Assembly (NCBI RefSeq): GCF_036203305.1
Contig: NZ_CP108132.1
Span: forward strand, 62,001 to 126,000
DNA from: Streptomyces sp. NBC_00190
Lineage (GTDB): Bacteria > Actinomycetota > Actinomycetes > Streptomycetales > Streptomycetaceae
Direction of reading: 5' to 3'
DNA length: 64,000 nt
Positions 11,621 to 64,000 of the stretch are shown piece by piece. Below the pieces are notes generated by a model, which did no database searches, was not told the origin of the DNA, and saw only the letters and a program-made list of their open reading frames with translations. The stretch's first letter is position 1. Each line of letters starts with the position of its first letter. The translations under genes were made by a program, and so were the position numbers.

Positions 11621-13498
11621 TCAGACCGCCGTGAGGACGCTGGTCCGGCTGAACAGCCTGACCAGCGGCATCAGGCGGTAGTGCGGGACGAGGTTGTCGG
11701 TGGGCCGGGGTTCCAGAAGGCGGGCGTCGGCCAGCTGGTCCAGGACGTCCTCGGCCTCGTGGAGCGGCAGGTCGAGGAGGGCGGCCGCGTCCAGGGGCGT
11801 GAAGTGGGAGAGGTCGGTGGCGGTGAGGGCGGCGAACGCCGTGGCGGTGGACGGGTCGAGGTCGGTCAGGGCGTGCCGCAGTCCGGTGGTGACGTCGAGG
11901 CTGCCGATGCGCAGTTCGCCGAGCCGGCGGTCCTCCGCGGCGAGCCGGGCGGCGAGGCGGGCGGGCGGCCGGTCGGGGCGGTCGGCGAGGCGGGCCGCGG
12001 CGATGCGCAGGGCGAGCGGGAGGCGATCGCAGTATTCGGCGATGCGGGCGACCGCTTCGGGGTCGGCGGCCAGCCGGTCGGGGCCGGCGATCCGGGCGAG
12101 GAGACGGGTCGCCTCGGCGGGGGTCATCGGGCCCAGGCGGACCAGGCGGGTGCCTTCGAGAGAGGCGAGGGCCGGGCGGATGCCGGTGACGAGGGTGCGG
12201 GTGGCGCCGCCGCCGGGAAGCAGGGGCCGTACCTGGGCGTCGTCGGCCGCGTTGTCGAGGACGACCAGCATGCGGCGGCCGGCGAGGAGCGTGCGGTAGA
12301 GCTGGGCGCGCTCGTCGAGGCCGTCGGGGATCCGGCCGGGGGCGGTACCCAGGGCGTGCAGGAACCAGCCCAGGACCTGGGCGGGGGCGCGGGACGCGCC
12401 GTCGGGGGTGCGCAGATCGGCGTACAGCTGGCCGTCGGGGAAGTCGGGGCGGGCGTGTTCGGCGGCCCTGAGGGCGAGTGCGGACTTTCCGGTGCCGTGG
12501 GCTCCGGTGATGACGACGTCCTGGCGGCCGTCGAGGGCGTCCAGCACCTCACGGCACGGGGCCTCCCTGCCCGTGAAGTCGCCCGGCGCGGCCGGCAGCA
12601 GGGCCGGGACCGGGCCGGCGGCGGAGCCGGGGACGGCGGGGGCCTGACCGGCCGGGGCCGGGGCGGTGACGGTCCGGGCGGCCGGCGCCCGGCCGGCCGG
12701 GGCCGGACCCGGCGCGGGCGGCTCGGCCGTGAGGGCGGCCGTCCGGTGTTCGGGGGCGGCGGGGGCGGGCAGGGTGCCGGTGAGGATCTCCTGGTGCAGG
12801 GCGCGCAGCTCGGGGCCCGGGTCGATGCCGAGTTCGTCGGCGAGGACCCGGCGGCCCTCCTCGTACAGGCAGAGGGCATCGGCCTGCCGGCCGCAGCGGA
12901 ACAGTGCGGTCATCAGCTGGCCGCGCAGGCGCTCCCGTAGGGGGTGCTGGGTGACCTGCCGGGTGAGGCCCGGGACGAGTTCGCCGTGGCGGCCCAGGGC
13001 GAGGGCTGCCTCGGTGTGGTGTTCGGTCGCGGCGAGGTGTGCCTCGGTCAGGCGCGGACCCTCGGCGGCGGCGAGCTGTTCGGTGACGCCGCTGAGCGCC
13101 GGGCCGCTCCACAGGGCGAGCGCCTGGCCGAGGCGGCGTTCGGCGTCGGCGTAGCGGCCCGCCAGGAGGTCGGCGCGGCCGGTTTCGGCGAGTTCGCGGA
13201 AGCGGTCCCAGTCGAGGGCGGCTGGGGTGATGTCCATGCGGTAGCCGGCGCCGTGGCGTTCCAGGCCGTGGCCCGGGCCCAGCCGGGTGCGCAGCCGCGA
13301 GACGTACGTGTAGAGCTGGTGGGTGCTCGTGGCGGGCGGGTTCCAGCCCCAGAGCAGGGTGGTGAGCCGCTCGTCGGTGATGACCTGGCCGTGGGCGAGG
13401 AGCAGGGCGGCGAGCGCGGTGCGCTGTTTGGAGCCGTCGAGGGGAACCGGGCTGCCGTCGAGCTCGGCGGACACGGGCCCGAGGATCTTGAAGTCCAT
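11621..13498 (-). CDS. SARP-family transcriptional activator with NB-ARC ATPase (no TPR)
   Basis: A 625-residue SARP (SARP 1). An OmpR-type winged helix (about 1-95, starting MDFKILGPV) is followed by a bacterial transcriptional activator domain (about 96-250, ending ELGIDPGPELRALH). A Pro/Ala-rich linker precedes an NB-ARC/AAA-like ATPase (Walker A GAHGTGKS near 333; LVVLDNAADD as Walker B region; DRLPLALRIAAARL as the GLPL-type motif). The protein stops shortly after the winged-helix part that follows NB-ARC and lacks the TPR array of full AfsR proteins. SARPs activate antibiotic operons by binding heptamer direct repeats next to the -10; the repeat at 11210-11238 is a natural target. GGAGGGG lies before ATG 13498. 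Confidence 0.92.
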   Translation of the reverse strand: MDFKILGPVSAELDGSPVPLDGSKQRTALAALLLAHGQVITDERLTTLLWGWNPPATSTHQLYTYVSRLRTRLGPGHGLERHGAGYRMDITPAALDWDRFRELAETGRADLLAGRYADAERRLGQALALWSGPALSGVTEQLAAAEGPRLTEAHLAATEHHTEAALALGRHGELVPGLTRQVTQHPLRERLRGQLMTALFRCGRQADALCLYEEGRRVLADELGIDPGPELRALHQEILTGTLPAPAAPEHRTAALTAEPPAPGPAPAGRAPAARTVTAPAPAGQAPAVPGSAAGPVPALLPAAPGDFTGREAPCREVLDALDGRQDVVITGAHGTGKSALALRAAEHARPDFPDGQLYADLRTPDGASRAPAQVLGWFLHALGTAPGRIPDGLDERAQLYRTLLAGRRMLVVLDNAADDAQVRPLLPGGGATRTLVTGIRPALASLEGTRLVRLGPMTPAEATRLLARIAGPDRLAADPEAVARIAEYCDRLPLALRIAAARLADRPDRPPARLAARLAAEDRRLGELRIGSLDVTTGLRHALTDLDPSTATAFAALTATDLSHFTPLDAAALLDLPLHEAEDVLDQLADARLLEPRPTDNLVPHYRLMPLVRLFSRTSVLTAV

Positions 13499-13932: not shown

Positions 13933-16920
13933 TCAGGGCTGGCCGCTCGCGAACAGCTGCCGCAAGCCGGCCGGTTCGCCTCCCGCGAGCGCCACCAGGA
14001 ACTGCTCCACACGCTCCCGCCACGCCCGTGCGCCGACCTCGGTGAAGAGGTCCACCGCGCTCTTGAACGTACCCGCGGCGCCGCTCACGTCCGAGCGCAG
14101 TGCCTGCGCACATCCGAGGACGACCGCTGCCCGCGCCCGGAGGTAGGCGTCCGTCACCTGTTCCGCGGCCTGCAGGGCACTGCGGGCGACCGCCTCGGCC
14201 TCCTCGAGCTTTCCCTGGCGCCACAGCGCCTCTCCCAGAGCACGCAGCACATGCGTCTCGCCCCTGCGGTCACCACTGCCGAGCACCAGCTCCAGCGCAC
14301 GCCGGCAGGCCTCCTCGGCGCGCGCCGCGTCGCCCTGGTGGAGCAGCGCCTTCGCCAGCCGGAGCATGCTCTGCGCCTCGCCCCGCACCGACCCGAGCCC
14401 TCTGCTCCTGGCCACGGCCTCCGAAGACAGCACCAGGCTCGCCTGGGCGTCCCCCCGTTCCAGTTCGATCTGCGCCAGCAGACCCAGTACATGGGCCTCG
14501 GCGTAGGGGTCGTCGACCGCGCGGAAGATCTCCAGCGAACGGCGGCCCGTCTCCACCGCCCGGCCCGTGTCTCCGCGATGGCGCTCGCACATCGCCAGGT
14601 TGCGCAGCACCAGGGCTCGCCCCTGGTCCTGGCCCTGCTCCTCGAACAGGGCCAGGGCCAGGCCGAGGCGCTCGTACGCGCTGTCGTGCTCGTACTGGAT
14701 GATCTCCAGGGTGCCGAGCGACTGCAGCATGGCCGCCTCGCCCAGCCGGTCGCCGGTGCGGCGGGCCGCGTCCAGGGCCGCTTCGCCGCATTCCCGCCAG
14801 TCCTCCAGGTAGTTGCGGCTCTGGAAGAGGGTGACGCTGGTCATCGTCAGCTCCCACGCGTAGCCGGACTCGCCCTCGCGGGCCGCCTGCTGCACGAGGC
14901 CCGTGATGGAGGAGCGCTCGGCCTCGAACCACTCCATGGGGTTCTCCACGAGGGAGTCCACCAGGTGGGCGGGGAGGTCCCGCAGGGGAGCGGCCCCGGG
15001 GACGACGGTGTAGTCGCCGCCGTAGAGCCGCCGGTGTGCCACCTTGGCGAGCCCCAGCCACACCCCGCAGGCGCGCCGCAAGGCCGCCCTCAGTTCCCCT
15101 TCTCCGTCCTCGGCAAGCGCGCATTCGCGAGCGAAGAGGCGGAGAAGGTCCTGAAACCGGTAGCGGACGTGGCCGGCGCTGGCGCTGAGGGGTTCGAGGA
15201 GCTGGGCGTCGACGAGCTGTTCGATGAGGTCCTCGGCGTCGACCGGGCCGATGTCGAGCAGGGCGGCGCCGGCCCACGCGGAGAACTCGGTGACGTTCAG
15301 CGAACCGAGCAGCCGGAACATGCGGGCGGTGTCGGCCGGCAGGTCACGGTAGCTCAGCCGCAGACCGGCCCGCACCCCGCGCGCGTCCAGGCTCAGTTCG
15401 TCGAGCCTGCGGTGCTGGTCCTCCAGGCGGGAGACGAGTGTGCGGACGGTCCAGTGCGGTTTCGCCGCGAGCCGGGCGGCCGCGATGCGCAGCGCGAGGG
15501 GAAGGCGGTCGCACAGTTCGCTGAGCCGGGCGGCGGCCACCGGGTCGCCGGCCAGCCGGTCGTCGCCGGCCACCCGGGAGAGCAGGGTGATCGACTCGTC
15601 CTGTTCGAGGGAACCGAGGTTCAGCGGTACGAGGGCGTAGTCGCCGGCGAGCCGGCTGCTCATGCTGTCGCGGCTGGTGACCAGGACGCAGCAGCCGGAC
15701 GTGCCGGGCAGGAGGGGGCGTATCTGCTGGAAGGAGCGGGCGTTGTCGAGGACGATCAGGACCCGGCGGCCGTCCAGGACGCTGCGGAAGAGCGCGGTCC
15801 GTTCGACCTGGTCGGCGGGGATCTGCGGGCCGGGCACGCCGAGGGCGCGCAGGAAGCGGTCGAGGACGGCGGCGGGCCTGCGGGGTTCCTCCTCCTCGTC
15901 GTAGCCGCGCAGGTCGGCGAAGAGCTGCCCGTCGGGGAAGCGGGAGGCGACCTGGTGGGACCAGTGCACGGCGAGCGCGGTCTTGCCGACGCCGCCGGTG
16001 CCGGTGATGGAGCCGACGGGCGGGGAGGCACCGTCGAGGAGGTCCAGCAGCCGGTCGAGGGTGGCCAGGTCCTGGTTGCGGCCGGTGAAGGACGCGGCGG
16101 CCGGGGGGAGATGGGCGGGCACCGTGGTGACCTGGGCGGGCAGGGGGTTTGCGGTGGGGAGGGTGAGCTTCGGGGAGTCGGCGAGGATGTCTCCGTGCAG
16201 TTCCTGGACCGCGGGCCCGGGGTCGATGCCGAGCTCCTCGGAGAGCAGGCGTGCGCCGTCGCGGTACGCCTCCAGGGCCTCGGCGCGGCGGCCGGAGCGG
16301 TAGTGGGCCAGCATCAGCTGGGCGAGGGCCTGTTCGCGCAGCGGGTTCGTCCGTACGAAGCCGGTGAGCTCCCCGATCAGTTCGCGGTGCTGGCCGCGAT
16401 CCAGGCGCAGGGCGGTGAGCTGTTCGTACACGTCGAGGCGGAGCTCGGTCAGGCGCTCGGCCTCCGCTTCGACCCGTTCGGCGGTGATGCCGGCGAGGGC
16501 GGGGCCGCGCCACATCGCGAGGGCTTCCTCGAAGTGTGCACAGGCCTCCTCGGTACGACCGCGGCGCGCGGCCTCGCGTCCTTCGGCGGCCCGTTCCTCG
16601 AACTCGACGGCGTCGATGCGGTGTTCGCCGGCGTAGAGCATGTAGCCGGGGTGGCTGGTGACGAGCAGGTCGTCGATGCCGACGGCGGTCTTGAGGGTCT
16701 TGCGCAGCGCGGAGACGCAGATGGCGATCTGGTTGCGCGCGGTGGCGGGCGGGTTGCCGTGCCAGACGGCGTCGGCGAGGGTGTCGACGGAGACGACCCG
16801 GCCGGGCGCGAGCAGCAGCATCGACATGATGGTGCGCTGCCGGGCGCCCTGGAGGGCGACCGGGCGCCCGTCGGCGCTGATGTCCAATGGCCCCAGGATC
16901 CGGAACACCACCTGAAGCAC
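13933..16920 (-). CDS. AfsR-like SARP regulator with NB-ARC and TPR domains
   Basis: A 995-residue regulator (SARP 2). Domains: winged-helix DNA-binding (about 1-98, VVFRILGPLDISADGRP), BTAD (about 100-250, ending ELGIDPGPAVQELHGDI), NB-ARC ATPase (about 280-560; Walker A GTGGVGKTALA near 307, LIVLDNA, DRLPLALRIAAARLA), winged helix, then a long TPR array (about 640-980) with repeated ALALFEEQGQ- and GRALVLRNLA-type helices. This is the AfsR architecture, in which ATPase and TPRs sense a signal or partner and the BTAD part activates promoters. GTG 16920 is chosen because GGGAGGG lies 6-7 nt upstream. A copy of the shared 16-bp box lies 94 nt upstream, suggesting autoregulation or common control. 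Confidence 0.93.
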   Translation of the reverse strand: MLQVVFRILGPLDISADGRPVALQGARQRTIMSMLLLAPGRVVSVDTLADAVWHGNPPATARNQIAICVSALRKTLKTAVGIDDLLVTSHPGYMLYAGEHRIDAVEFEERAAEGREAARRGRTEEACAHFEEALAMWRGPALAGITAERVEAEAERLTELRLDVYEQLTALRLDRGQHRELIGELTGFVRTNPLREQALAQLMLAHYRSGRRAEALEAYRDGARLLSEELGIDPGPAVQELHGDILADSPKLTLPTANPLPAQVTTVPAHLPPAAASFTGRNQDLATLDRLLDLLDGASPPVGSITGTGGVGKTALAVHWSHQVASRFPDGQLFADLRGYDEEEEPRRPAAVLDRFLRALGVPGPQIPADQVERTALFRSVLDGRRVLIVLDNARSFQQIRPLLPGTSGCCVLVTSRDSMSSRLAGDYALVPLNLGSLEQDESITLLSRVAGDDRLAGDPVAAARLSELCDRLPLALRIAAARLAAKPHWTVRTLVSRLEDQHRRLDELSLDARGVRAGLRLSYRDLPADTARMFRLLGSLNVTEFSAWAGAALLDIGPVDAEDLIEQLVDAQLLEPLSASAGHVRYRFQDLLRLFARECALAEDGEGELRAALRRACGVWLGLAKVAHRRLYGGDYTVVPGAAPLRDLPAHLVDSLVENPMEWFEAERSSITGLVQQAAREGESGYAWELTMTSVTLFQSRNYLEDWRECGEAALDAARRTGDRLGEAAMLQSLGTLEIIQYEHDSAYERLGLALALFEEQGQDQGRALVLRNLAMCERHRGDTGRAVETGRRSLEIFRAVDDPYAEAHVLGLLAQIELERGDAQASLVLSSEAVARSRGLGSVRGEAQSMLRLAKALLHQGDAARAEEACRRALELVLGSGDRRGETHVLRALGEALWRQGKLEEAEAVARSALQAAEQVTDAYLRARAAVVLGCAQALRSDVSGAAGTFKSAVDLFTEVGARAWRERVEQFLVALAGGEPAGLRQLFASGQP

Positions 16921-17014: not shown

Positions 17015-17030
17015 CGGCAGCAAACTGCCA
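17015..17030 (-). promoter_or_regulatory. Shared 16-bp box upstream of SARP 2
   Basis: CGGCAG-CAAA-CTGCCA: a 5-bp inverted repeat core (GGCAG/CTGCC) around a 4-nt spacer, 94 nt before the SARP 2 start. Same 6-4-6 layout as the boxes at 20050, 20868, 20932, 23318 and 26286. Confidence 0.6.
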
Positions 17031-17043
17031 GACGGGCCGCTGA

Positions 17044-17259
17044 TCAGGTACGGGCCGCCCACGAGGAGGGGGGCAGCAGCTCGCTGCGGTCCCAGCGGGC
17101 GGCCTGCTCGGTCGGGGCGGGTTCGGGGGCGCGGGCGGTGAGGACCGTCACGAGGGCCGCGACGACGGCGAGTTCCTCCGGGGTGGGACGGCCATTGATG
17201 ATCTTGAACAGGGACGGTGCCAGGGGTCCGTCGAGGGCGGGTGCGGTGGTGCCGGACAT
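17044..17259 (-). CDS. Acyl-CoA carboxylase epsilon subunit
   Basis: A 71-residue AccE/PccE-type protein. The diagnostic stretch is FKIINGRPTPEELAVVAALV (about 18-37) followed by a Pro/Ala-rich linker and a C-terminal Trp (PSSWAAR). Epsilon subunits are found only in actinomycetes and stimulate the carboxylase holo-complex by binding the beta subunit. It starts 12 nt after the beta-subunit stop, with AAGGAG placed over the end of that gene, so the pair is co-translated. Short but well supported by context. Confidence 0.9.
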   Translation of the reverse strand: MSGTTAPALDGPLAPSLFKIINGRPTPEELAVVAALVTVLTARAPEPAPTEQAARWDRSELLPPSSWAART

Positions 17260-17271
17260 GGCTCTCACTCC

Positions 17272-18819
17272 TTACATCGGGGGGTTGCCGTGCTTGCGGG
17301 CGGGCGTCGCGGCGTGCTTGGTGCGGAGCATGGCGAGGGCGCCGATCAGGGTGGCGCGGGTGTCGGCGGGGTCGATGACGTCGTCGACGAGGCCGCGCTC
17401 GGCCGCGTAGTACGGGTGCATCAGCTCGGCCTTGTACTCCTTGACGAGCTGCTGCCGGGTGGCCTCGGGGTCCTCGGAGGCGGCGATCTGGCGGCGGAAG
17501 ACCACGTTGGCCGCGCCCTCGGCGCCCATGACGGCGATCTCGTTGGCCGGCCAGGCGAAGGTGAGGTCGGCGCCGATGGACTGGGAGTCCATGACGATGT
17601 AGGCGCCGCCGTAGGCCTTGCGCAGGATGAGGGAGATCCGCGGGACGGTGGCGTTGCAGTAGGCGTAGAGGAGTTTGGCGCCGTGCCGGATGATGCCACC
17701 GTGTTCCTGGTCGACGCCCGGGAGGAAGCCGGGTACGTCGACCAGCGTGACGAGCGGGACGGAGAACGCGTCGCAGAGCTGGACGAAGCGCGCCGCCTTC
17801 TCCGAGGAGTGGATGTCCAGGACACCGGCCAGGGACTGGGGCTGGCTGGCGACGATGCCGACGACCTGGCCGCCGATCCGGGCGAGGGTGGTGATGACGC
17901 TGGTGGCCCAGCGCTCGTGGACCTCCATGTGCTCGCCGTCGTCGACGATCTCCGTGATGACCTCGCGCATGTCGTACGGGCGGCTGCCGTCGAGGGGGAC
18001 GAGGTCGAGGAGGCGCTCGCAGCGGCGGTCGACGGGGTCGTCGCAGGAGACGGCGGGCGGGGTGGCCCGGTTGTTGGCGGGCAGCATCGACAGCAGGTAG
18101 CGGACCTCGGAGATGCAGGTCTCCTCGTCGTCGTACGCGAAGTGCGCGACGCCCGAGGTCTCGGCGTGCACGTCCGCGCCGCCGAGCCCGTTCTGGGTGA
18201 TCTCCTCGCCGGTCACCGCGCGGACCACGTCCGGGCCGGTGATGAACATCTGCGAGGTCTCGCGGACCATGAACACGAAGTCCGTCAGCGCCGGGGAGTA
18301 CGCGGCGCCGCCCGCGCACGGGCCCAGCATCACCGAGATCTGCGGGATGACGCCCGAGGCCCGGGTGTTGCGCTGGAAGATGCCGCCGTAGCCGGCGAGG
18401 GCGGAGACGCCCTCCTGGATACGGGCGCCGGCGCCGTCGTTGAGGGAGACCAGCGGAGCGCCGGCCGCGATGGCCATGTCCATGATCTTGTGGATCTTCG
18501 TGGCGTGGGCCTCGCCCAGGGCACCGCCGAAGATGCGGAAGTCGTGCGCGTAGACGAAGACCGTACGGCCCTCGACCGTGCCCCAGCCGGTGATGACACC
18601 GTCGGTGTAGGGCTTCTTGGCCTCCAGGCCGAAGCCCGTCGCCCGGTGGCGGCGCAGCTGCTCGACCTCCTTGAAGGAACCCTCGTCGAGCAGGAGGGCT
18701 ATGCGCTCACGGGCGGTCAGCTTGCCCTTGGCGTGCTGCGCCTCGGTCGCGGCGGGCATGCCGTCGAGGACGTCCTGCCGGATGCGGACGAGTTCGGCGA
18801 CGCGTTCGGCCATGGTCAT
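17272..18819 (-). CDS. pccB-like: Acyl-CoA carboxylase beta subunit (propionyl-CoA carboxylase type)
   Basis: A 515-residue carboxyltransferase subunit. It has two crotonase-like halves: the first with the biotin/CoA oxyanion Gly-rich loops (GGALGEAHATKI, GPCAGGAAYSPALTDF), the second with VDVPGFLPG and RKAYGGAYIVM. The specificity region IGADLTFAWPANEIAVMGAEGA carries the Asp associated with PccB-type propionyl-CoA preference rather than acetyl-CoA. It transfers CO2 from carboxybiotin (on an alpha subunit not encoded here) to an acyl-CoA, giving methylmalonyl-CoA. Second gene of a leftward operon: polyprenyl synthetase, this gene, epsilon subunit. Why it sits between a SARP and a lasso operon is unclear; precursor supply is one possibility. 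Confidence 0.93.
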   Translation of the reverse strand: MTMAERVAELVRIRQDVLDGMPAATEAQHAKGKLTARERIALLLDEGSFKEVEQLRRHRATGFGLEAKKPYTDGVITGWGTVEGRTVFVYAHDFRIFGGALGEAHATKIHKIMDMAIAAGAPLVSLNDGAGARIQEGVSALAGYGGIFQRNTRASGVIPQISVMLGPCAGGAAYSPALTDFVFMVRETSQMFITGPDVVRAVTGEEITQNGLGGADVHAETSGVAHFAYDDEETCISEVRYLLSMLPANNRATPPAVSCDDPVDRRCERLLDLVPLDGSRPYDMREVITEIVDDGEHMEVHERWATSVITTLARIGGQVVGIVASQPQSLAGVLDIHSSEKAARFVQLCDAFSVPLVTLVDVPGFLPGVDQEHGGIIRHGAKLLYAYCNATVPRISLILRKAYGGAYIVMDSQSIGADLTFAWPANEIAVMGAEGAANVVFRRQIAASEDPEATRQQLVKEYKAELMHPYYAAERGLVDDVIDPADTRATLIGALAMLRTKHAATPARKHGNPPM

Positions 18820-18855
18820 GGGGGCTCCCTTGCCGGTCTACCGGTTGTGCCGGTG

Positions 18856-19911
18856 TCAGCTGGTGCGGAGGGCGATGTAGTCGCAGAGGGCGAGCAGGGC
18901 GCGGCGGGCCGGCAGCGGGGGCAGCCCGGCGAGGGCCGCGCGGGCCCGGTCGAGGCGGCGGTGCATCACGGCCTCGGTCTCTTCGAGCGCGGTGGAGCGC
19001 TCGAAGAGTTCCAGGGCGCGCGGCACGTCGGCGGCCGGGACGGGGCCGGCGGCGAGGAGGCCGCGCAGTTCGGCGTCGGCGGGGTCGCCGCCTTCGCGGG
19101 CGAGCAGGACGGGCAGGCTCTGGACTCCGGCCAGCAGGTCCTTGCCGCGTTCCTTGCCGGTGACGTCGGCCGGGGAGCGCAGGTCGAGGAGGTCGTCGGC
19201 TATCTGGAAGGCGATGCCGAGCTCTCGGCCGCACTCGGTGAGGGCGGCCACGTCGCCCGTCCGGGCCGCGGCCTGGATGGCTCCGATGCCCAGAGACATC
19301 GAGAGCAGGGCCGCCGTCTTGCCCTCGGCCACCTTGAAGTAGTGGGTGACCGGGTCCTCGTCGGGGCCGGGGCCGGTCAGTTCGCGCAGCTGGCCCGCGA
19401 CCAGGCGGCCGGCCGCCTGGGCGTTGAGGTGGACGGCGGCGGGGCCGAGTTCGGCGGCGAGCTGGGCGGCACGGGCGAGCAGCCAGTCCCCGCCGAGGAC
19501 GGCGGCGCGCTCGCCCCAGCGGGCGTGGGCGCTGGGGACGCCGTGCCGGGTGGCGGCGCCGTCCATCACGTCGTCGTGGTAGAGGGAGGCGATGTGCACG
19601 AGTTCGGCGATGGCGGCGGCCTGGGTGACGCCGTGGGCCCAGGGGTCGCCGAATTCGGCGCCGAGGAGGACGAGGAGGGGGCGCAGGCGTTTGCCGCCTG
19701 CGTCGGCGAGGTGGCCGGTGAGCGCGGCGACCCGCGGGTCGAGGGCGTCGTGGGCGCTGGCCTGGAGCCATTTCTCGGCGCGGGAAAGGGATTCCCGCAT
19801 TCGGACCTCGAACTCCGGTTCTTCAAGGGCGAGTTGGGTGAGCAGCCGGGCGGCGGGCAGATCAGTCGACACGGATGCCGTCCCGGCTCCGTACGTTTGT
19901 CCAGCACCCAT
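18856..19911 (-). CDS. Polyprenyl (isoprenyl) diphosphate synthetase
   Basis: A 351-residue trans-isoprenyl diphosphate synthase. The first Asp-rich motif is HDDVMD (in LVHIASLYHDDVMDGA), the second is DDLLD (in AFQIADDLLDLRSP), and GGKRLRPLLVLL is present. These bind the Mg-diphosphate of the allylic substrate and IPP. The residues before the first motif (Leu-Tyr-His) are small-to-medium, as in long-chain (C30-C50) heptaprenyl/octaprenyl-type enzymes. The chain length is not decided by inspection. GGAGGGG lies before ATG 19911. Head of the operon with pccB-like and epsilon genes (37 and 12 nt gaps). Confidence 0.92.
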   Translation of the reverse strand: MGAGQTYGAGTASVSTDLPAARLLTQLALEEPEFEVRMRESLSRAEKWLQASAHDALDPRVAALTGHLADAGGKRLRPLLVLLGAEFGDPWAHGVTQAAAIAELVHIASLYHDDVMDGAATRHGVPSAHARWGERAAVLGGDWLLARAAQLAAELGPAAVHLNAQAAGRLVAGQLRELTGPGPDEDPVTHYFKVAEGKTAALLSMSLGIGAIQAAARTGDVAALTECGRELGIAFQIADDLLDLRSPADVTGKERGKDLLAGVQSLPVLLAREGGDPADAELRGLLAAGPVPAADVPRALELFERSTALEETEAVMHRRLDRARAALAGLPPLPARRALLALCDYIALRTS

Positions 19912-20049
19912 GGGGAATCCCCTCCGCGACACGGCGAACCTATCGATTTCACCTATTCGCACGACAGCTTTCAGCCCCGGCGGACTGCCCTACAACAGCG
20001 CTGACATGAAGGTGCCACTACGACCTCAGCGCACGGCCGACCAGGAGAT

Positions 20050-20065
20050 CGTCAGCTTCCTGCCA
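20050..20065 (+). promoter_or_regulatory. Shared 16-bp box upstream of the cysteine-rich secreted protein
   Basis: CGTCAG-CTTC-CTGCCA, ending 78 nt before the TTG start at 20144. In the direction of transcription it matches the lasA box (TGTCAG-CTTG-CTGCCA) at 13 of 16 positions or better. Confidence 0.6.
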
Positions 20066-20143
20066 AGTTTTCGGCGGTCCGGTCGGCCCCGAATGGCCGC
20101 CGTTACGCTCCCTCACGAAATCTTCGAGGGAAGGCTCAAGGAA

Positions 20144-20845
20144 TTGCGAAACCGAATCACGCTCGCCGCTGTACTCGTCGCCGTCGCACTGTCCCTGACG
20201 GTCGTTCCGGCCACGGCGGCCGAGACCACCGCGACGCCTGCCGCACCGGCCGCGCAGACCTGCGGTGAGATACGGCTGACCGGGTCGCTCCCCGCGCCGC
20301 CGGCCGGTATGGCCGTCCAGCAGCAGATCACGATCGGGGCGGACTGCGAGCCCCGGCTCGGGGAAGCGCGGCTGGTACCGGTGGCGTCCGAGGGCGCGGC
20401 GAAGACCGCCGTGAGCCCGGCCGCCGCGCCGGCGGCCGGTGTCGCCGCCGTTCGCCAGTTCAAGAGCTGGAACGAGATGTACGACTGCTGCAACATCCGG
20501 ATGACCGGCCTCTACACGACGTCGCAGTGGACGACGGACGGCGGCCGGATCACGACGGCGGCCACCGACGCGACGCAGGCGTGGAACCGGGAGCCCTGGA
20601 ATGCCGGCTGGTCACTGAAGTCCGCCACGAAGAACACCGACTGCTTCAGCGACTGCGGTGTCTCGCGGACCGAGGCGCACGCCGACTTCACGTACAAGGG
20701 AATCTTCGACATTTCCGGGAACGTGTACGCGAACACGCACCACTCCTCCGTGGACCTGAACGCCGACGGCTCCGCCACCTGCCGTTTCGACGTGTCGCTG
20801 CGGAACACCTTCATCGGGTGGAACTGGCAGCGCGGCTGCGCGTGA
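20144..20845 (+). CDS. Secreted cysteine-rich protein of unknown function
   Basis: About 233 residues from a TTG start (20144) preceded by GAGGGAAGG. An ATG at 20093 is in frame but would put non-signal-like residues before the basic start. From TTG the N-terminus is a clean Sec signal peptide: RNR, hydrophobic TLAAVLVAVALSLTVV, then ATAA. The mature part has a Pro/Ala-rich first half, then a domain with eight cysteines overall (including a DCC pair and DCFSDCG) and aromatic/Asn-rich segments, ending GWNWQRGCA. No family recognised; disulfide-rich and extracellular is the safe description. A truncated, diverged copy with a similar promoter lies at 23318-23519. It lies under the same box as the lasso precursor. 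Confidence 0.75.
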   Translation: MRNRITLAAVLVAVALSLTVVPATAAETTATPAAPAAQTCGEIRLTGSLPAPPAGMAVQQQITIGADCEPRLGEARLVPVASEGAAKTAVSPAAAPAAGVAAVRQFKSWNEMYDCCNIRMTGLYTTSQWTTDGGRITTAATDATQAWNREPWNAGWSLKSATKNTDCFSDCGVSRTEAHADFTYKGIFDISGNVYANTHHSSVDLNADGSATCRFDVSLRNTFIGWNWQRGCA

Positions 20846-20867
20846 GGCGGCCCCGCAAAACGGCGTC

Positions 20868-20883
20868 TGGCAGCTTTTGACCA
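20868..20883 (+). promoter_or_regulatory. Shared 16-bp box 1 upstream of the MMPL exporter
   Basis: TGGCAG-CTTT-TGACCA: the left arm is exact and the right arm is degenerate. It ends 140 nt before the MMPL start codon, just past the stop of the secreted-protein gene. Confidence 0.5.
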
Positions 20884-20931
20884 ACCGCGGGGGTGCCGTG
20901 TGACGTGCGGCGCCACGTCAAGGGCGTGCGC

Positions 20932-20947
20932 TGTCAACAAGCTGTCA
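20932..20947 (+). promoter_or_regulatory. Shared 16-bp box 2 upstream of the MMPL exporter
   Basis: TGTCAA-CAAG-CTGTCA. Its reverse complement TGACAG-CTTG-TTGACA keeps the CTTG spacer. It ends 76 nt before the MMPL start, close to the spacing seen for the other boxes. Confidence 0.5.
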
Positions 20948-21023
20948 TCGGAAGGAATTCCGGAGTCCGGGTTTTCTAAACTCGCCGGGATTCCCCCATC
21001 CGAGTCCGCTGAAGGAGTCCGCA

Positions 21024-23186
21024 ATGTTACGAGGGATTGGGCGGCTTGCCGTACGCCGCCCATGGCTCACCATCGCCGCCTGGATCGTCGCCACATTGGC
21101 CACGGTGATGCTGGCTCCGCAACTACCGTCGACGACCGATCAGGCCGAGTTCCTCCCGTCGCATTACGAGACGGTGCAGGTCATGAAGGTGGAGGAGCGC
21201 GCTTTCCCGCGCGAGGAGCAGCCGGCGGCCACCATCGTCTTCAAACGTACCGACGGCGGAAGTCTTTCGGCGGAGGATCAGGCCACCGTCTCGAAAGTGG
21301 CGGCCGATCTGACGGGAAGGAAATACAAGGAGATCAAGGAGGTCCTAACCGGTCCGCAGATGCTCTCGCCGAACGGCACGATCATGCTGGCCTCGGTCAG
21401 TACCTCGGCGGAGAACGTCTTCACCGAGGACGTGTACGAGTCCGTCAGGCAGATGCGCGTCGACGCCAAGGAGCAGCTCTCCGGCGGAGCGCTGTCGATG
21501 GGCATCACCGGGCAGGCGGCCTCGGCGGTGGATTCGATGGAGTCGGCCGGTGACACCGACTCCATGATCATGATGGCCACGCTGGGCCTCATCGTCGTAC
21601 TGCTCCTGATCATCTTCCGCAGCCCGCTGATCGCCCTGATGCCGGTGGTCATCATCAGCCTGGTCTTCGCCGTGGCCACCGGGCTGATCGCCACCGCGAG
21701 CAAGATCGGCGGGCTGAAGGCCGACGCCTCCGTCACCTCGATCCTCATCGTGGTGCTGTTCGGCGTCGGCACCGACTACATGCTGTTCCTGCTCTTCCGT
21801 TACCGGGAACAGCTGCGCACCGGCGTGCCGGCGCGACAGGCCATGGCGCAGGCCGTGGAACGGGTCGGCGAGACCATCGCCTCCGCCGCGGGCGCGGTGA
21901 TCGTGGCCTTCCTCGCGCTGCTGCTCTCGTCCATGGGCATGCTGCGGACCATGGGCCCGGCGCTCGCCATCTCCGTGGGCGTCACCGCGGTCGCCTCGCT
22001 CACCCTCGTGCCCGCGGTGTTCGCCCTGCTGGGCACCAAGGCGTTCTGGCCGTCCAAGGCGTGGCAGCGCGAGCCGAAGAACGCCCTGTCGCACCGCACC
22101 GCCCGGCTCGTCTCCCAGCGTCCCGGCGTGGTCGCGGCGGTGTCCGGCGGCATCCTGATCGCCCTGACCGTCGGCCTGTTCGGCTTCCGGGCCGAGTACG
22201 ACTCCAACAGCTCGCTGCCCAAGCACCTGGAGTCCGTGCGGGCCCAGGACGACCTCGCGCGCGGTTTCGCCGCGGGTGCCACCGAGCCGACGCTGGTCTA
22301 CGTGGAGGACCGGGCCGGCAAGGCGATCCCCGAGGCGGCGCTGAAGACCTTCGGTGAGCGGATCGGGCAGGTCGAGGGTGTCGGGCCGGTCTCCCCGCCC
22401 CGGGTAAGCCCGGACGGCTCGGTGGCCCAGTTCAGCGTGGTGCTCGACCACAAGCCGGCCGCGGACGAGGCGCTCGCCCTGGTCGAGGGGCCGCTCCGGG
22501 ACGCCGCCCACAGTGCGGCGCCCGAGGGCACCAGGGCTCTGGTCGGCGGTTCGACCGCGCTGCTCGCCGACATCAGGGACGCCGTCAACCGCGACTACTC
22601 CGTGGTGTTCCCGGCGGCCGGCATCGCCATCATGATCATCCTGGGTCTGCTGCTGCGCAGCGCGGTGGCGCCCTGGTACCTGATGGCCGCGGTCGGCCTC
22701 GGGTTCAGCGCCACCCTCGGTGCGACGGTGGTGCTCTTCCAGAACGTGCAGGGCCAGCACGGCCTGCTGTTCATGCTGCCGGTGATGGTCTACCTGTTCG
22801 TGGTGGCCATCGGCACCGACTACAACATCCTGATGGTGGCCCGGCTGCGGGAGGAGGCCGCCCGGGGCCGGGACCCGAAGGAGGCCACCCGGCTCGCGGT
22901 CGCCCACTCGATGCCGACCGTCGCCACCGCCGGCCTCATCCTGGCGGGCACCTTCGGCGTGCTGATGCTGGCGCAGAACTCGATGCTGCAGCAGATGGGC
23001 TTCGCCGTCTCCTTCGGCATACTGCTCACCGCCTTCGTGATGGCGGTGCTGCTGGTGCCGGCGGTGACCACGCTGCTGGGCCACCGGGCCTGGCTGCCGG
23101 GCCGCCCGAAGAGCGGCCACGGGGAGCCGGCCGCCGACGGCGTCACCGTGCGGGCGCCGGAGCGAGAGTCGGCCGGCAGCAGGTAG
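21024..23186 (+). CDS. MMPL-family RND transporter
   Basis: A 720-residue integral membrane protein of the MMPL/RND superfamily, which exports lipids or hydrophobic compounds using the proton gradient. Layout: TM1 (about 13-31), an external loop domain, a bundle of TMs (about 175-340), a second external domain, and a second bundle (about 530-700). The paired proton-relay motifs GVGTDYMLF and AIGTDYNIL are both intact. GAAGGAG precedes the ATG. Codon 2 is TTA (21027-21029), so expression should depend on bldA. It lies downstream of the cysteine-rich protein and upstream of the lasso genes, shares their box, and is the nearest exporter for either product; cargo is inferred only. Confidence 0.92.
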   Translation: MLRGIGRLAVRRPWLTIAAWIVATLATVMLAPQLPSTTDQAEFLPSHYETVQVMKVEERAFPREEQPAATIVFKRTDGGSLSAEDQATVSKVAADLTGRKYKEIKEVLTGPQMLSPNGTIMLASVSTSAENVFTEDVYESVRQMRVDAKEQLSGGALSMGITGQAASAVDSMESAGDTDSMIMMATLGLIVVLLLIIFRSPLIALMPVVIISLVFAVATGLIATASKIGGLKADASVTSILIVVLFGVGTDYMLFLLFRYREQLRTGVPARQAMAQAVERVGETIASAAGAVIVAFLALLLSSMGMLRTMGPALAISVGVTAVASLTLVPAVFALLGTKAFWPSKAWQREPKNALSHRTARLVSQRPGVVAAVSGGILIALTVGLFGFRAEYDSNSSLPKHLESVRAQDDLARGFAAGATEPTLVYVEDRAGKAIPEAALKTFGERIGQVEGVGPVSPPRVSPDGSVAQFSVVLDHKPAADEALALVEGPLRDAAHSAAPEGTRALVGGSTALLADIRDAVNRDYSVVFPAAGIAIMIILGLLLRSAVAPWYLMAAVGLGFSATLGATVVLFQNVQGQHGLLFMLPVMVYLFVVAIGTDYNILMVARLREEAARGRDPKEATRLAVAHSMPTVATAGLILAGTFGVLMLAQNSMLQQMGFAVSFGILLTAFVMAVLLVPAVTTLLGHRAWLPGRPKSGHGEPAADGVTVRAPERESAGSR

Positions 23187-23190
23187 ACAC

Positions 23191-23223
23191 CCTTCCGGCG
23201 CGGCCCTCGGCCGCGCCGGAAGG
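23191..23223 (+). terminator. Stem-loop terminator after the MMPL gene
   Basis: A perfect 15-bp stem (23191-23205 with 23209-23223) with a 3-nt loop begins 4 nt after the MMPL stop codon. No T-run follows. Confidence 0.75.
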
Positions 23224-23242
23224 CAGTACGGGAGTCCGGGCG

Positions 23243-23276
23243 GCGCGCCCACCGGCACGACGGCCGGTGGGCGCGC
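23243..23276. terminator. Second GC-rich stem-loop downstream of MMPL
   Basis: A 13-bp stem (23243-23255 with 23264-23276) and 8-nt loop, 19 nt past the first hairpin. It could be a tandem terminator for MMPL or stop leftward lasso transcription. Confidence 0.55.
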
Positions 23277-23317
23277 GGGTGCCCCTACGACGCCATGACC
23301 CGCTGCGACCAGTGTTT

Positions 23318-23333
23318 TGGCAGCTTCCTGCCA
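23318..23333 (+). promoter_or_regulatory. Shared 16-bp box, best copy, in front of a gene relic
   Basis: TGGCAG-CTTC-CTGCCA, perfect 6-bp arms (7 bp counting the flanking T and A). It ends 75 nt before the TTG of the relic gene, nearly the same spacing as in the intact secreted-protein gene (78 nt). Confidence 0.65.
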
Positions 23334-23408
23334 ACGGTGCAGCCGATCGGCCGACGGCGAATACCCGGCGCTCCACTCCGTCCCGAAACCACGGGGAAAG
23401 GCTGTGAA

Positions 23409-23519
23409 TTGCCGGGCCATTCATGCTCGGCGCCGTACTCACGGAACCGGACCTGCCGTTTCGACGGTCGGCTGCGCGGCGCCTTCAGCGGGTGGAACCG
23501 GCGGCGCGGCTTCCGGTGA
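23409..23519 (+). pseudogene. Truncated relic of the cysteine-rich secreted-protein gene
   Basis: From a TTG at 23409 the reading frame encodes only 36 residues, ending RTCRFDGRLRGAFSGWN followed by a few residues and a stop at 23517-23519. This matches the C-terminus of the intact protein at 20144-20845 (TCRFDVSLRNTFIGWN). At DNA level ACCTGCCGTTTCGACG is shared exactly, as are stretches around GCGGGTGGAAC. Upstream, the box, the spacing and the GAATTG start context also match. The signal peptide and central domain are missing, so this is an internally deleted duplicate. Its last 35 nt overlap the 3' end of the convergent lasB2 gene. Confidence 0.7.
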
Positions 23520-23946
23520 CCGGGCCCGGCGCGGCCACCGAGATCAGCCGCGCCCAGTTCGCGTGATCACCCTTCTCACCGATGAGCCTGCCTTCGGCCT
23601 CCACCCACGCGTGGGGGCTGAACGGCGGGATCATCAGCGTGCCCACGCACCACGTGGGCCAGGTGCCGCCCAGCCGGCAGGTCAGCGCGACGGCCACGGA
23701 CCGGGGCAGACAGCTGCGCTGCCCGTTCATCCGCAGGCTGGAGGTCAGCACCAGTTCCCGCGCCCGCGTCGCCTGCGCCTCGGTCGCCGGGACCGCGCCG
23801 CGCGCGAGCCGGGTCAGGGCCCGTTCGAGCCGGTGCGGGGCGAGGCGGGCGAGCAGCCGGGCGGCTCCGACCGCCGTACGGGCCGCCAGCCGACGGCGCA
23901 GCGGGAAGCTGCCGCGGTCGGCCGGCAGGGCGGTGGTGACGCTCAC
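23485..23946 (-). CDS. lasB2: Lasso peptide B2 leader peptidase
   Basis: A 153-residue transglutaminase-like cysteine protease that removes the leader from the lasso precursor. The core block holds the catalytic Cys79 in GQRSCLPRSVAVALTCRLGG and His112 in SPHAWVEAEGR; the acidic third residue is probably among Glu118, Glu124 and Asp127. The WPTWCVGTLMIPPFSPHAW spacing is typical of actinobacterial B2 proteins. It starts in a 4-nt ATGA overlap with lasB1. Its last dozen residues (PGPVTGSRAAGSTR) are encoded antisense to the relic gene and look non-native, so the 3' end may have been reshaped by that duplication. Confidence 0.9.
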   Translation of the reverse strand: MSVTTALPADRGSFPLRRRLAARTAVGAARLLARLAPHRLERALTRLARGAVPATEAQATRARELVLTSSLRMNGQRSCLPRSVAVALTCRLGGTWPTWCVGTLMIPPFSPHAWVEAEGRLIGEKGDHANWARLISVAAPGPVTGSRAAGSTR

Positions 23947-24200
23947 GCCGCCACCACTCCCGCCTCGGCCATGGCCGCCAGCACCGCGTGGACGTCCGCC
24001 GCGGCGCGTTCCGCGTCGACGTCGTACTCCTCGGTGAGGCGGCGGGTGGCGTCCTCGGCCTGCCCGCCGTCGAGCAGGGCGCCCACGATCGTCGCGGAGG
24101 TGGGGTTCAGCTCCCAGTAGGCGCCCGACTTGGTGTCGAGCAGCACGGCGCCGTACTCGGTGGTGGCGAGCTTGAGGTACTCGCGGTGGACGAGTTTCAT
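23943..24200 (-). CDS. lasB1: Lasso peptide B1 / RRE (PqqD-like) protein
   Basis: An 85-residue RiPP recognition element of the PqqD fold. It holds the precursor leader (its YxxP region) and presents the peptide to B2. Sequence features: KLATTEYGAVLLDTKSGAYW, ELNPTSATIVGALL and ADVHAVLAAMAEAGVV, the usual beta-strand/winged-helix order of lasso B1. Starts in an ATGA overlap with lasC and ends in an ATGA overlap with lasB2, so translation of all three is coupled. Confidence 0.92.
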   Translation of the reverse strand: MKLVHREYLKLATTEYGAVLLDTKSGAYWELNPTSATIVGALLDGGQAEDATRRLTEEYDVDAERAAADVHAVLAAMAEAGVVAA

Positions 24201-26023
24201 GCCAGGGCTCCTTGGGCGTTCACGGTCGTACGCAGCCACATCTCGGCGGCGAGGGTGGACAGGAAGCGGTCGTCGCGCAGCTGCGGTGAGGAGGGCACGG
24301 CGCACAGGCGGCGCAGCTCGGCCTCGTCCACGAGGCCGGCGCGGCCGAGCATGCTGTCCTCCCACAGTCCGGTCAGCGCCTCGCGGTTGCGGTAGAGGCC
24401 GGCTGCCACGTCCTGGGTGCCCTCGCCCTTGGTGGTGCGGGAGAGGGAGCGGCGGGGCACTAGCCCGTCCATCGCGCGGACCAGCAGCGGCTTGTACGCC
24501 CAGGGGTCGACCCGGTCCAGGGCGCGGACCGAGAAGGCCGCGTCCACCACCCGGTCGTCCAGGAAGGGGGCGGACATCGGCACTCCGGCCGCCCGGCCAG
24601 CGTCCTCGATGTCCTGGTTGCCGCGGACCAGCCCGCGCAGGGCCGCCAGTTCCGTGTGGCGGCCGGGCGTTCGCCCGTACGGCACGGCGGTGGGGGCGGC
24701 GGCGGCCAGCTCCCGCTCCAGCAGGCGCAGGCAGTCCTCGGTCAGCCAGGAGGCCACGGAGGGCTGCCCCAGCCAGCCGAGAGCCGGACTGCCGGGCACC
24801 GGCTCGGGTACGTCGCGCAGTGAAACGGCCGCCAGGGCCGCACGGTAGCCGCGGCGGTCGGCGAGCTGGCGGGCGACGGGGGCCAGCGGCCAGGAGAGCA
24901 GCGCGCGGAAGCCGCTGAGGCGGCGCAGGGCGGGCAGCGGGTGGCGGACGAGAAGTGTGTGCAGGTGGTGGGGGAGACCGACGAACAGGTTGTCCCCGCC
25001 GTTCCCGGTCAGGTGGAGCCGGGAGCCGCGGGCGGCCATCTTGGCGGTGAGGACGGTCACGCGGCGGCGGGAGGCGACCAGCGGGGTGGGGGCGTCGAGC
25101 CTCAGGCCCGGGTCGTCGAACCCGTCGTAGAACTTCGGCAGTTCCTCGTTGGGCAGGATGTAGTGCTCGACACCGGGCAGGTCCTCGGCGGCCCAGCGTG
25201 CCCACCGGCCGTCCTCGTTGAAGGCCTCGTCGCCGGTGGAGGTGGCCGCGATGAGCCGTGCGCGGGAGTCACGGGCGGCGAGGAAGCACACGGTGGTGGA
25301 GTCCAGGCCGCCGGAGAGGTCGGAGCTGATCAGCCCGCCGGGGGCGGTACGGACCTCCACCGCGTCCAGCAGTGCATCCCGGACGGCGGCGGCGCCGCGG
25401 TCCAGAGGTGTGACGGGCTCCGGTGGCCGGTGCCAGCGCCGCTCGGACAAGACGCCGTCGGGGGAGGCCAGCAGGGCCGCGCCCGGAGGGACGGCGGTGA
25501 CGGCCGACCACATCGGGCGCTCGTCGAGCGGGGCGGGCGCCGCGCCCAGAAGGCGGAGCGCCACGGCGGCCGGGTCGGGTTCCAGGCCCGCCAGCCGGGC
25601 CAGTTCGGCGGCCCGGTCGCCGGCCACCAGGGTCCCGCCGGTGCGGGTGTGGAAGACGCGCCGGGCTCCGTACGCGGAACCCTGTACGCGCAGGGCTCCG
25701 TCCACGGAGGCGAGCAGGTGGAACTGGCCGGACAGGGTGAGCGCCAGGTCGTCCAGCTCGGCGGGGTCGCGCAGGACGCCGGCGCGGCGCGTGAGCGCGC
25801 CGGCGGCGGACTGCGAGAAGGTGCCGATCAGGGCGATGGCGTTACGGCCCGCCCGCGCCACGAGGAGATCGGCCGGCTCCCACCGGCCGACGATCCAGTC
25901 CCGCCCGGAGGCATGGGCCGCGGACGACAGGCCGGGCACGTCCTCGCGCAGGTGCCGGGCCGCGGCGGACCCCGCCTCGTTGTCAGGGAATACGAAGAAG
26001 AACGGTGCGCCGCGGTCCGGCAT
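24197..26023 (-). CDS. lasC: Lasso peptide macrolactam synthetase (asparagine synthetase-like)
   Basis: A 608-residue ATP-dependent ring-closing enzyme that adenylates the Asp/Glu side chain of the core and joins it to the N-terminal amine. The N-terminal part resembles a glutaminase fold (about 1-200) but has no N-terminal Cys2, as expected for lasso cyclases. The synthetase half has the PP-loop SGGLDSTTV (about 243-251) and the downstream TGNGGDNLF and GNQDIEDAG segments. AGGAGCTGACA precedes the ATG at 26023, 29 nt after the precursor stop. Complete length for the family (about 600). Confidence 0.93.
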   Translation of the reverse strand: MPDRGAPFFFVFPDNEAGSAAARHLREDVPGLSSAAHASGRDWIVGRWEPADLLVARAGRNAIALIGTFSQSAAGALTRRAGVLRDPAELDDLALTLSGQFHLLASVDGALRVQGSAYGARRVFHTRTGGTLVAGDRAAELARLAGLEPDPAAVALRLLGAAPAPLDERPMWSAVTAVPPGAALLASPDGVLSERRWHRPPEPVTPLDRGAAAVRDALLDAVEVRTAPGGLISSDLSGGLDSTTVCFLAARDSRARLIAATSTGDEAFNEDGRWARWAAEDLPGVEHYILPNEELPKFYDGFDDPGLRLDAPTPLVASRRRVTVLTAKMAARGSRLHLTGNGGDNLFVGLPHHLHTLLVRHPLPALRRLSGFRALLSWPLAPVARQLADRRGYRAALAAVSLRDVPEPVPGSPALGWLGQPSVASWLTEDCLRLLERELAAAAPTAVPYGRTPGRHTELAALRGLVRGNQDIEDAGRAAGVPMSAPFLDDRVVDAAFSVRALDRVDPWAYKPLLVRAMDGLVPRRSLSRTTKGEGTQDVAAGLYRNREALTGLWEDSMLGRAGLVDEAELRRLCAVPSSPQLRDDRFLSTLAAEMWLRTTVNAQGALA

Positions 26024-26052
26024 TGTCAGCTCCTGCGCAGAGAACCGGAAAT

Positions 26053-26172
26053 TTAGAACCAGCCGCCGCGGTGGTTCCAGTCCCAGCTGCCGACCGGGAG
26101 ACCCATTCCGGTGTCGGCGCGGAAGGAGCCGGCGGCGGCGAAAACGGGGGCTGTGTAAGCCTTCTTCATCAT
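26053..26172 (-). CDS. lasA: Lasso peptide precursor (leader plus Trp-rich core)
   Basis: A 39-residue precursor, too short for most gene callers. After tandem start Met codons (26172 or 26169; AAAGG upstream) the leader carries YTAPVFAAAGSFRADT, matching the actinobacterial lasso leader rule YxxPx(L/F)xxxGx5T read by B1. The conserved Thr at position -2 predicts cleavage after TG, giving the 17-residue core MGLPVGSWDWNHRGGWF with a Met1-Asp9 ring. Cleavage one residue later gives a 16-mer with Gly1-Asp8. Either way the Asp closes the ring, the tail is WNHRGGWF, and there are no cysteines (class II type). It heads the lasC-B1-B2 operon under a copy of the shared box. I do not recognise this core among lasso peptides I know. 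Confidence 0.9.
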   Translation of the reverse strand: MMKKAYTAPVFAAAGSFRADTGMGLPVGSWDWNHRGGWF

Positions 26173-26285
26173 GACCTTTTTCCTTTCGGTGGGCCGGAAA
26201 CAATTCCGGCAGCCTTTGTGCTTGCCCCAAAACCTTCACAGCGGGAGACCGCCAACTCAACGCACTTGTCCGGTTCGGGCCGTGG

Positions 26286-26301
26286 TGGCAGCAAGCTGAC
26301 A
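26286..26301 (-). promoter_or_regulatory. Shared 16-bp box upstream of the lasso precursor
   Basis: TGGCAG-CAAG-CTGACA; read toward lasA it is TGTCAG-CTTG-CTGCCA. It lies 113 nt before the lasA start, and 85 nt before the divergent membrane-protein gene. A half site TTGGCAG (26369-26375) lies 11 nt before that second gene. Confidence 0.6.

Positions 26302-41054: not shown

Positions 41055-64000
<22,946 letters not shown>

Follow-up and report, generated by a model that had tools for sequence, protein, structure and literature searches.

The question raised by this locus is why several unlike genes share one 16-bp inverted repeat in their promoters and which protein reads it. The locus lies in a 64,000-nucleotide (nt) stretch of Streptomyces sp. 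NBC_00190 (the window; positions 62001-126000 of contig C2, NZ_CP108132.1, 260,073 bases), the genome being 8.89 Mb on two contigs, C1 and C2. The first-pass annotation of the window had noticed the repeat, here called the box, before an AfsR-like regulator (SARP2), a lasso peptide gene (lasA), an eight-cysteine secreted protein (SecP) and an MMPL exporter, had joined them into one regulon and had named SARP2 as the candidate binding protein. Sequence comparison confirmed the box as real and conserved and showed it to occur more widely than first noted, and boxes at orthologous promoters support the regulon. SARP2 was not borne out as its reader. The box is probably the operator of two adjacent LuxR-type proteins, LuxR105 and LuxR106, coded about 70 kb from SARP2 and outside the window, which would activate a putative cinnamoyl-containing nonribosomal peptide cluster, the lasso peptide and SARP2.

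A direct check of the sequence recovered all six sites of the first-pass annotation, and all proved intergenic when set against the called genes, with the nearest starts about 70-140 nt away. The box is a 7-2-7 palindrome of 16 bp with the consensus TKKCAGS-WW-SCTGMMA. At the SARP2 promoter it lies on the minus strand (17015..17030; TGGCAGTTTGCTGCCG when read toward SARP2; one mismatch to TGGCAG-N4-CTGCCA), 94 nt from the GTG at 16920, and is followed by 6 nt, a −35-like TTGCGG, about 17 nt and a −10-like TAACCC. On the plus strand, a box between the polyprenyl synthetase gene (minus) and SecP (plus) (20050..20065; CGTCAGCTTCCTGCCA; two mismatches) is 78 nt from the SecP TTG at 20144, the box of the MMPL promoter (20932..20947; TGTCAACAAGCTGTCA; three mismatches) is 76 nt from the ATG at 21024, and a perfect box (23318..23333; TGGCAGCTTCCTGCCA; no mismatch) lies about 70 nt before the possible start of a SecP relic. 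The lasA box (26286..26301, minus strand; TGTCAGCTTGCTGCCA when read toward lasA; one mismatch) is 113 nt from the ATG at 26172 and also faces a divergent gene at 26386. The remaining plus-strand site, 140 nt before the MMPL start (20868..20883; three mismatches), is the weakest and drops below 12 bits once left out of matrix training; it is possibly, and doubtfully, a degenerate second MMPL site.

Loose counting was discarded as proof of the box because it was uninformative: the bare 6-4-6 pattern with at most three mismatches occurred 35 times in the window against 41.6 expected, so that the case must rest on other tests. A symmetric matrix built from the six sites was run over the first 240 kb of C2 and returned four new sites at ranks 6-9, directly after five of the training sites; the sixth, 20868, ranked lower. 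All four are in the same gene cluster and outside the window, and such out-of-sample sites provide the evidence that counting alone does not. They precede the gene for an 8279-aa nonribosomal peptide synthetase (NRPS) by 84 nt (C2:127979, window 65979; with TTG at +6, that is, 6 nt past the box), a thioesterase-like gene by 62 nt (C2:132926) and a malonyltransferase-like gene by about 200 nt (C2:146350); the fourth (C2:148336) separates a LuxR gene from a divergently oriented phosphopantetheinyl transferase (PPTase) gene. A retrained matrix added a box about 95 nt before an acyl-carrier-protein (ACP) gene (C2:143646) and a 14.0-bit match inside the PPTase gene, which we take as chance; no site of at least 12 bits was found in the remaining 140 kb of C2 scanned. 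The regulon thus appears wider than first noted, taking in the NRPS, thioesterase-like, ACP and malonyltransferase-like promoters of the same cluster.

The first-pass annotation had itself named orthologous promoters as the place to look for the box, and it was found there. SARP2 (13933..16920, minus strand; 995 aa; Pfam BTAD 6.5e-45, NB-ARC 1e-12, TPR_12 1.1e-24) has homologues at 29 loci, 22 of which were scanned (13 at least 63% identical, three at 55-58% and six at 37% or less; the seven left out were of low identity). Genome G204, with a SARP2 69% identical, was counted beside the 13, making 14 homologues at least 63% identical; a box of at least 15 bits was present at the SARP2 promoter in all of these except G204. 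The 13 boxes lie 92-130 nt before the start and score 15.7-22.2 bits with a matrix from the window sites only. No box was found at the SARP2 promoter of the three homologues at 55-58% or of the six at 37% or less. In the alignment of the window promoter with the 13 others, the box is followed after 6 nt by TTG (in most of them) and, about 17-18 nt further on, by an element resembling TAAC or TTAC.

SecP (20144..20845, plus strand; 233 aa, secreted type, eight cysteines) has neither a Pfam nor an NCBIfam match, and homologues 55-68% identical occur in box-bearing regions of G178, G006, L108 and L116; SecP or the MMPL exporter (21024..23186, plus strand; 720 aa, resistance-nodulation-division type; Pfam MMPL 2.9e-111) has a promoter box in these four and in strain NBC_00503. 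In the SecP relic (23404..23520, plus strand) the last 20 residues alone are recognisable (65% identity, E 8.6e-5). At the place of the relic, L116 (S. bambusae) and NBC_00503 (75% identity) carry a full SecP homologue with a box, and SecP seems to have moved or been duplicated, its promoter box left behind. In relatives, boxes also stand at the malonyltransferase-like, ACP or DsbA, and thioesterase-like promoters. On the NBC_00503 plasmid (NZ_CP107856) the counterpart promoters have boxes too, and the five strong ones that carry TTG at +6 are those that carry it in the window strain (SARP2, NRPS, thioesterase-like, ACP and malonyltransferase-like); there is also a 12.5-bit site, and an extra one of 16.7 bits at the cluster edge.

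For the lasso peptide, lasA (26053..26172, minus strand) encodes the precursor MMKKAYTAPVFAAAGSFRADTGMGLPVGSWDWNHRGGWF, whose counterpart in NZ_CP108192 is annotated as a keywimysin-related ribosomally synthesized and post-translationally modified peptide. It is accompanied on the minus strand by lasB2 (23485-23946; Transglut_core3 1.7e-21), lasB1 (23943-24200) and lasC (24197-26023; Asn_synthase 2.4e-38), which complete a lasso set of A, B1, B2 and C genes, the A and B1 labels being those of the NZ_CP108192 counterpart. L224 and L225, the lasso clusters closest to this one, carry an identical lasA box. Among remoter ones, L226 (55% identical, in a SARP2-cluster genome) has four box-like sites and L227 one of 16.3 bits; L228 has none of at least 13 bits, and six other lasso loci in these genomes have no box. 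Judged from these promoters, the membership of the lasso peptide in the regulon is conserved. In NBC_00503 (L277:20756-21776) lasA and its box are kept, lasC and lasB2 are in pieces and no lasB1 match was found; its lasso genes look decayed.

The position of the box relative to the promoter was analyzed with 100 distinct pooled boxes of at least 15 bits, that is, 200 oriented flanks with offsets to 39 nt, the TTG spacing not having been used in finding the boxes. TTG fell precisely at +6 in 46 of the 200 flanks and at no other offset in more than 8; after similar flanks were collapsed, the count was 34 of 80, against at most 7 elsewhere. This spacing was seen with 31 of the 59 boxes in SARP2-cluster genomes and with 15 of the 41 others, about half of the cases overall. 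The share of boxes that appear to abut a −35-like element, an activator-like place, is therefore roughly between two in five and one in two. Nine close pairs of boxes were also present, six of them spaced 94-103 bp (for example, positions 2551 and 2645 of L136, upstream of LuxR106). Such a distance is near nine or ten helical turns, and cooperative binding or looping is possible.

The regulators coded in the cluster are SARP1, SARP2, an IclR-like protein and the two adjacent LuxR-type proteins. LuxR106 (C2:147322-148077, minus strand) scores above the GerE cut-off of 23.5 bits (26.3 bits) and LuxR105 (C2:146451-147236, minus strand) below it (20.2 bits). By sequence, the C-terminus is a GerE/NarL-type helix-turn-helix (HTH), and a profile of LuxR106 homologues matches GerE and VraR in the Protein Data Bank. 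Because the putative recognition helix S(L/V)RTYRRxVAxI is common to LuxR105 and LuxR106, either or both may read the palindrome. Among 18 aligned LuxR106 homologues, conservation is 0.83 in the HTH domain and 0.58 before it. A Foldseek search with an AlphaFold2 model of LuxR106 (mean predicted local distance difference test score 79.5) placed TrmB-family and phospholipase-D-fold chains first, though the TM-scores were modest and did not exceed 0.41 by query length, and the Pfam TrmB match of LuxR105 falls slightly under its cut-off.

To relate the box to these genes, LuxR106 was searched in 295 Streptomyces genomes and the best 30 loci were fetched, weaker matches lying beyond these; four (L133, L134, L136 and L142) belong to SARP2 clusters and were dropped. 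A box of at least 13 bits was present in 23 of the 26 loci (3.7 kb each) outside SARP2 clusters, and one of at least 15 bits in 20; at the 13-bit threshold, the 25 control loci gave none, and 4.7% of the 360 sequences from a Markov model had one. The proportion was 18 of 21 when near-identical loci were removed, and the window-only matrix gave 22 of 26, compared to 0 of 25 and 12 of 312 in the controls. On a larger scale, LuxR-pair regions outside SARP2 clusters, 538 kb in all, contained 40 boxes of at least 15 bits, and the 372 kb surrounding ten SARP2-like genes (48-55% identical) contained none. All 14 genomes with a SARP2 box of at least 15 bits, NBC_00190 and the 13, have a LuxR106 orthologue (53-80% identical in the 13). 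By contrast, the box was missing or degenerate at all five SARP2 homologues without such an orthologue, meaning no match or only partial ones at 29-35% (L113, L114, L118, G204 and G074, the last with a best score of 2.6 bits). Finally, ten further regions were read, three of them picked because no IclR paralogue had been found. In the clusters of G037, G156 and G089 the LuxR pair is accompanied by boxes scoring 18-23 bits, and the genes listed over 40 kb include no homologue of SARP1, SARP2 or IclR.

These distributions bear on who else might read the box. If SARP2 bound it, at its own and at other promoters, one would understand why 13 of 14 close SARP2 homologues have it, SARP2 being the AfsR-like regulator within the cluster, and the three boxless homologues at 55-58% could differ in specificity. 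However, the box follows the LuxR pair. Outside SARP2 clusters it is kept at 23 of 26 LuxR loci, and SARP2 homologues without a LuxR106 orthologue lack it or have it in degenerate form, as in G204, whose SARP2 is close and which has no LuxR106 match. SARP2 is therefore disfavoured on co-occurrence, and the sites of SARPs and AfsR are described as direct repeats in the review PMC10972967. We consider it quite unlikely as the binder; it looks like one of the regulon's targets. The cluster's own IclR-like regulator (C2:143677-144408), acting as repressor or activator, is an unlikely candidate as well. It has a 48% paralogue that belongs to a genus-wide kind, with matches in 295 of 295 genomes, which we take to be NdgR. 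Palindromic sites of 15 bp are known for NdgR and other IclR proteins, and many clusters have an IclR-like gene close to the LuxR pair, yet the motif obtained for NdgR by chromatin immunoprecipitation sequencing is a different sequence (both from PMC4340878). In addition, the boxes of G037, G156 and G089 occur in genomes whose single IclR match is of the 48%, genus-wide kind, and the promoters of the genus-wide gene in the loci inspected had no box except one 14.5-bit match (L257). On these grounds the IclR-like protein is disfavoured.

Two further readings are a global regulator coded elsewhere in the chromosome and mere chance among GC-rich intergenic palindromes. A strict degenerate pattern, NKKCARNWWNYTGMMN, was run genome-wide. 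Of its 53 matches in 8.89 Mb, 44 are listed on C1 and six on C2, and by deduction the three others are C2:143646, 146350 and 148336, which fit the pattern; nine of the 53 sit in the 70-kb cluster. Twenty of the 44 on C1, chosen by eye for likeness, were inspected (at L185 a better-scoring neighbouring site was scored instead), and 12 were coding and eight intergenic. Four that were both intergenic and of at least 15 bits, the best at 20.7, would suit a global regulator. This is nevertheless very unlikely, since none of the 20 had TTG at +6, the 372-kb control sequence contained no box of at least 15 bits, and the five genomes that have no LuxR106 orthologue lack the SARP2 box or have a degenerate one. 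The probability of chance is close to negligible. It would account for the lack of excess of the loose pattern in the window and of the strict one genome-wide, but not for four out-of-sample sites in the same cluster, 14 aligned SARP2 promoters and a fixed TTG spacing, and the conservation tests already count against it.

Several observations weigh against the LuxR pair as reader. The strict pattern shows no overall genome-wide enrichment (53 matches against 55 for the reversed control), and seven of the 20 inspected C1 matches reached 15 bits, up to the 20.7 bits of C1:863571; the case is thus based on clustering, position, spacing and conservation rather than on genome-wide counts. Three of the 26 LuxR loci have no box of at least 13 bits (L143/G127, L154/G287 and, slightly below the threshold, L144/G090), and their proteins retain the recognition helix. 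The reverse case is G204, which has no LuxR106 match and carries a degenerate GTGCAGGAACTTGCAA (13.3 bits) at −141. Four of the five SARP2 homologues lacking LuxR106 are only 55-58% identical, so that divergence of SARP2 confounds the comparison and only G204 breaks it. The nearness of the IclR-like gene to the pair in many clusters counts in the same direction, as do some box-bearing LuxR-pair regions, the second locus of G227 and G058 among them, whose 20-40 kb of inspected sequence showed no cinnamoyl genes. TTG at +6 is lacking in half or more of the boxes, many of those pooled are not independent, being orthologous, and the 25 control loci, being largely coding, are an imperfect control. 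Unaided palindrome searches upstream of and around the LuxR genes missed the box, GC-rich and coding palindromes dominating, and co-occurrence gives no separation of LuxR105 from LuxR106.

On balance we favour the LuxR105/LuxR106 pair. It would bind directly upstream of the −35 element as a homo- or heterodimer, a position that agrees with activation, and would, in response to whatever its sensor part may sense, activate the NRPS, thioesterase-like, ACP and malonyltransferase-like genes, the MMPL exporter, the secreted protein and the embedded lasso peptide; SARP2, an AfsR-like activator, would be switched on one step below. A broader proposal, which we advance tentatively and hold to be somewhat less than probable, is that two paralogous LuxR proteins with nearly the same helix and TrmB/phospholipase-D-like sensor parts partner, perhaps as a heterodimer, on a single 16-bp operator. 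In Streptomyces and Kitasatospora alike this operator would mark cinnamoyl-lipid clusters, and by means of it such clusters would recruit foreign modules (here a lasso cluster and an AfsR-like SARP), one signal releasing two chemically unrelated products.

The pair has a described counterpart. Overexpression of LuxR1 and LuxR2 raised transcription of the cinnamoyl (gla) cluster of Streptomyces globisporus C-1027, and homologues are stated to occur in the skyllamycin, cinnapeptin and atratumycin clusters (PMC9381841). By description, both systems have two adjacent LuxR-family genes with a C-terminal LuxR/GerE HTH (above the cut-off in LuxR106, below it in LuxR105) in a cinnamoyl type II polyketide synthase (PKS) cluster, with an EchA-type NRPS, a PPTase and an acyltransferase. 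A term search of the main text of that article returned no binding site, palindrome, consensus, inverted repeat or SARP, whereas here an operator is proposed and the regulon includes a lasso peptide and a SARP. In its form, the box is closest to the PAS-LuxR (PimM) operator CTVGGGAWWTCCCBAG, given in PMC9774167 as a 16-bp palindrome with a WW centre in the −35 region. The half-site TKKCAGS differs, no PAS family was among the Pfam matches of the LuxR proteins at E ≤0.01, and their N-terminal part resembles TrmB/phospholipase D; by analogy, the box may work like a PAS-LuxR operator without the pair belonging to that family. SARP operators are likewise activator sites at or near −35 in Streptomyces clusters, but those of AfsR, ActII-ORF4 and PimR are described as heptameric direct repeats, and a term search of the review (PMC10972967) returned no "inverted repeat", whereas the conserved element here is an inverted repeat. 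NdgR shares with our case a palindromic operator and a paralogue coded in the cluster, but the box does not match its published motif, [GT]T[CT]CAC...GGAC (PMC4340878). The operator was not described in the titles and abstract beginnings returned by an open-licence literature search, and such a search joining cinnamoyl, SARP, LuxR and Streptomyces gene cluster found nothing.

By Pfam, the cluster has NRPS, ketosynthase (KS), ketoreductase (KR)-type, ACP, DsbA-type, PPTase and adenylation-thiolation-thioesterase genes; the labels thioesterase-like (alpha/beta fold hydrolase), malonyltransferase, MbtH and dehydratase (DH) were taken from the counterpart cluster of NBC_00503. The combination of an NRPS with type II PKS-like KS, KR, DH, ACP and isomerase-type genes points to a cinnamoyl-containing nonribosomal peptide cluster and agrees with the gene make-up described for cinnamoyl-moiety clusters in PMC9381841. 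The main NRPS gene, labelled from the counterpart cluster, runs on the minus strand from 41055..64000 on to C2:127894 (window 65894). The malonyltransferase-like gene (C2:145230-146146, window 83230-84146) appears frame-split, possibly through an assembly error, and is one gene in the NZ_CP107856 annotation. The counterpart of 9652-11187 is annotated as tryptophan 7-halogenase in NZ_CP108192 and NZ_CP107856, from which label the cluster product may be halogenated; the window protein has no NCBIfam match. SARP1 (11621..13498, minus strand; 625 aa; Pfam BTAD 1e-46) has no site of at least 12 bits upstream. Acyl-CoA carboxylase epsilon and beta subunits and a polyprenyl synthetase, named from counterparts (17044..19872, minus strand), are conserved with the cluster. 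Draft contigs L104-L107, L110, L115, L117 and L122 stop about 0.3-1.4 kb upstream of SARP2, several inside the carboxylase gene, as if a second near-identical carboxylase gene disrupts the assemblies.

C2 is probably a linear-type plasmid, because three Streptomyces plasmid records of 255.9-260.1 kb carry a LuxR106 gene 99.6% identical and one of them, the linear NZ_CP108192 of strain NBC_00122, has the same gene order over the 30 kb read. Five of the six window boxes are unchanged in NZ_CP108192, and the counterpart of 20868 scores below 12 bits. On the chromosome of NBC_00190 (G000), one box-like sequence with the same neighbouring genes recurs at C1:50354 and C1:8583493, which mirror each other near the two ends; terminal inverted repeats would be expected to give this picture. 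At genus-wide IclR loci such as L252, L258 and L264, a conserved inverted-repeat-like element, TTGCGTTTCAC...GAGACG, stands directly before the start of what is presumably ndgR.

This analysis proposes a concrete operator for a LuxR pair whose activating role was reported, in the text searched, without a binding site. The operator could help to draw the borders of cinnamoyl clusters by sequence, to place an exporter, an unknown secreted protein and a lasso peptide in one regulon, and to predict which silent clusters answer to the LuxR pair. In the proposed order a SARP would stand below a LuxR regulator, the reverse of the arrangement in which the SARP PimR acts on pimM (PMC10972967). The regulon also suggests common control over the making of a ribosomal and a nonribosomal peptide; if this is true, one signal would release two chemically unrelated products together.

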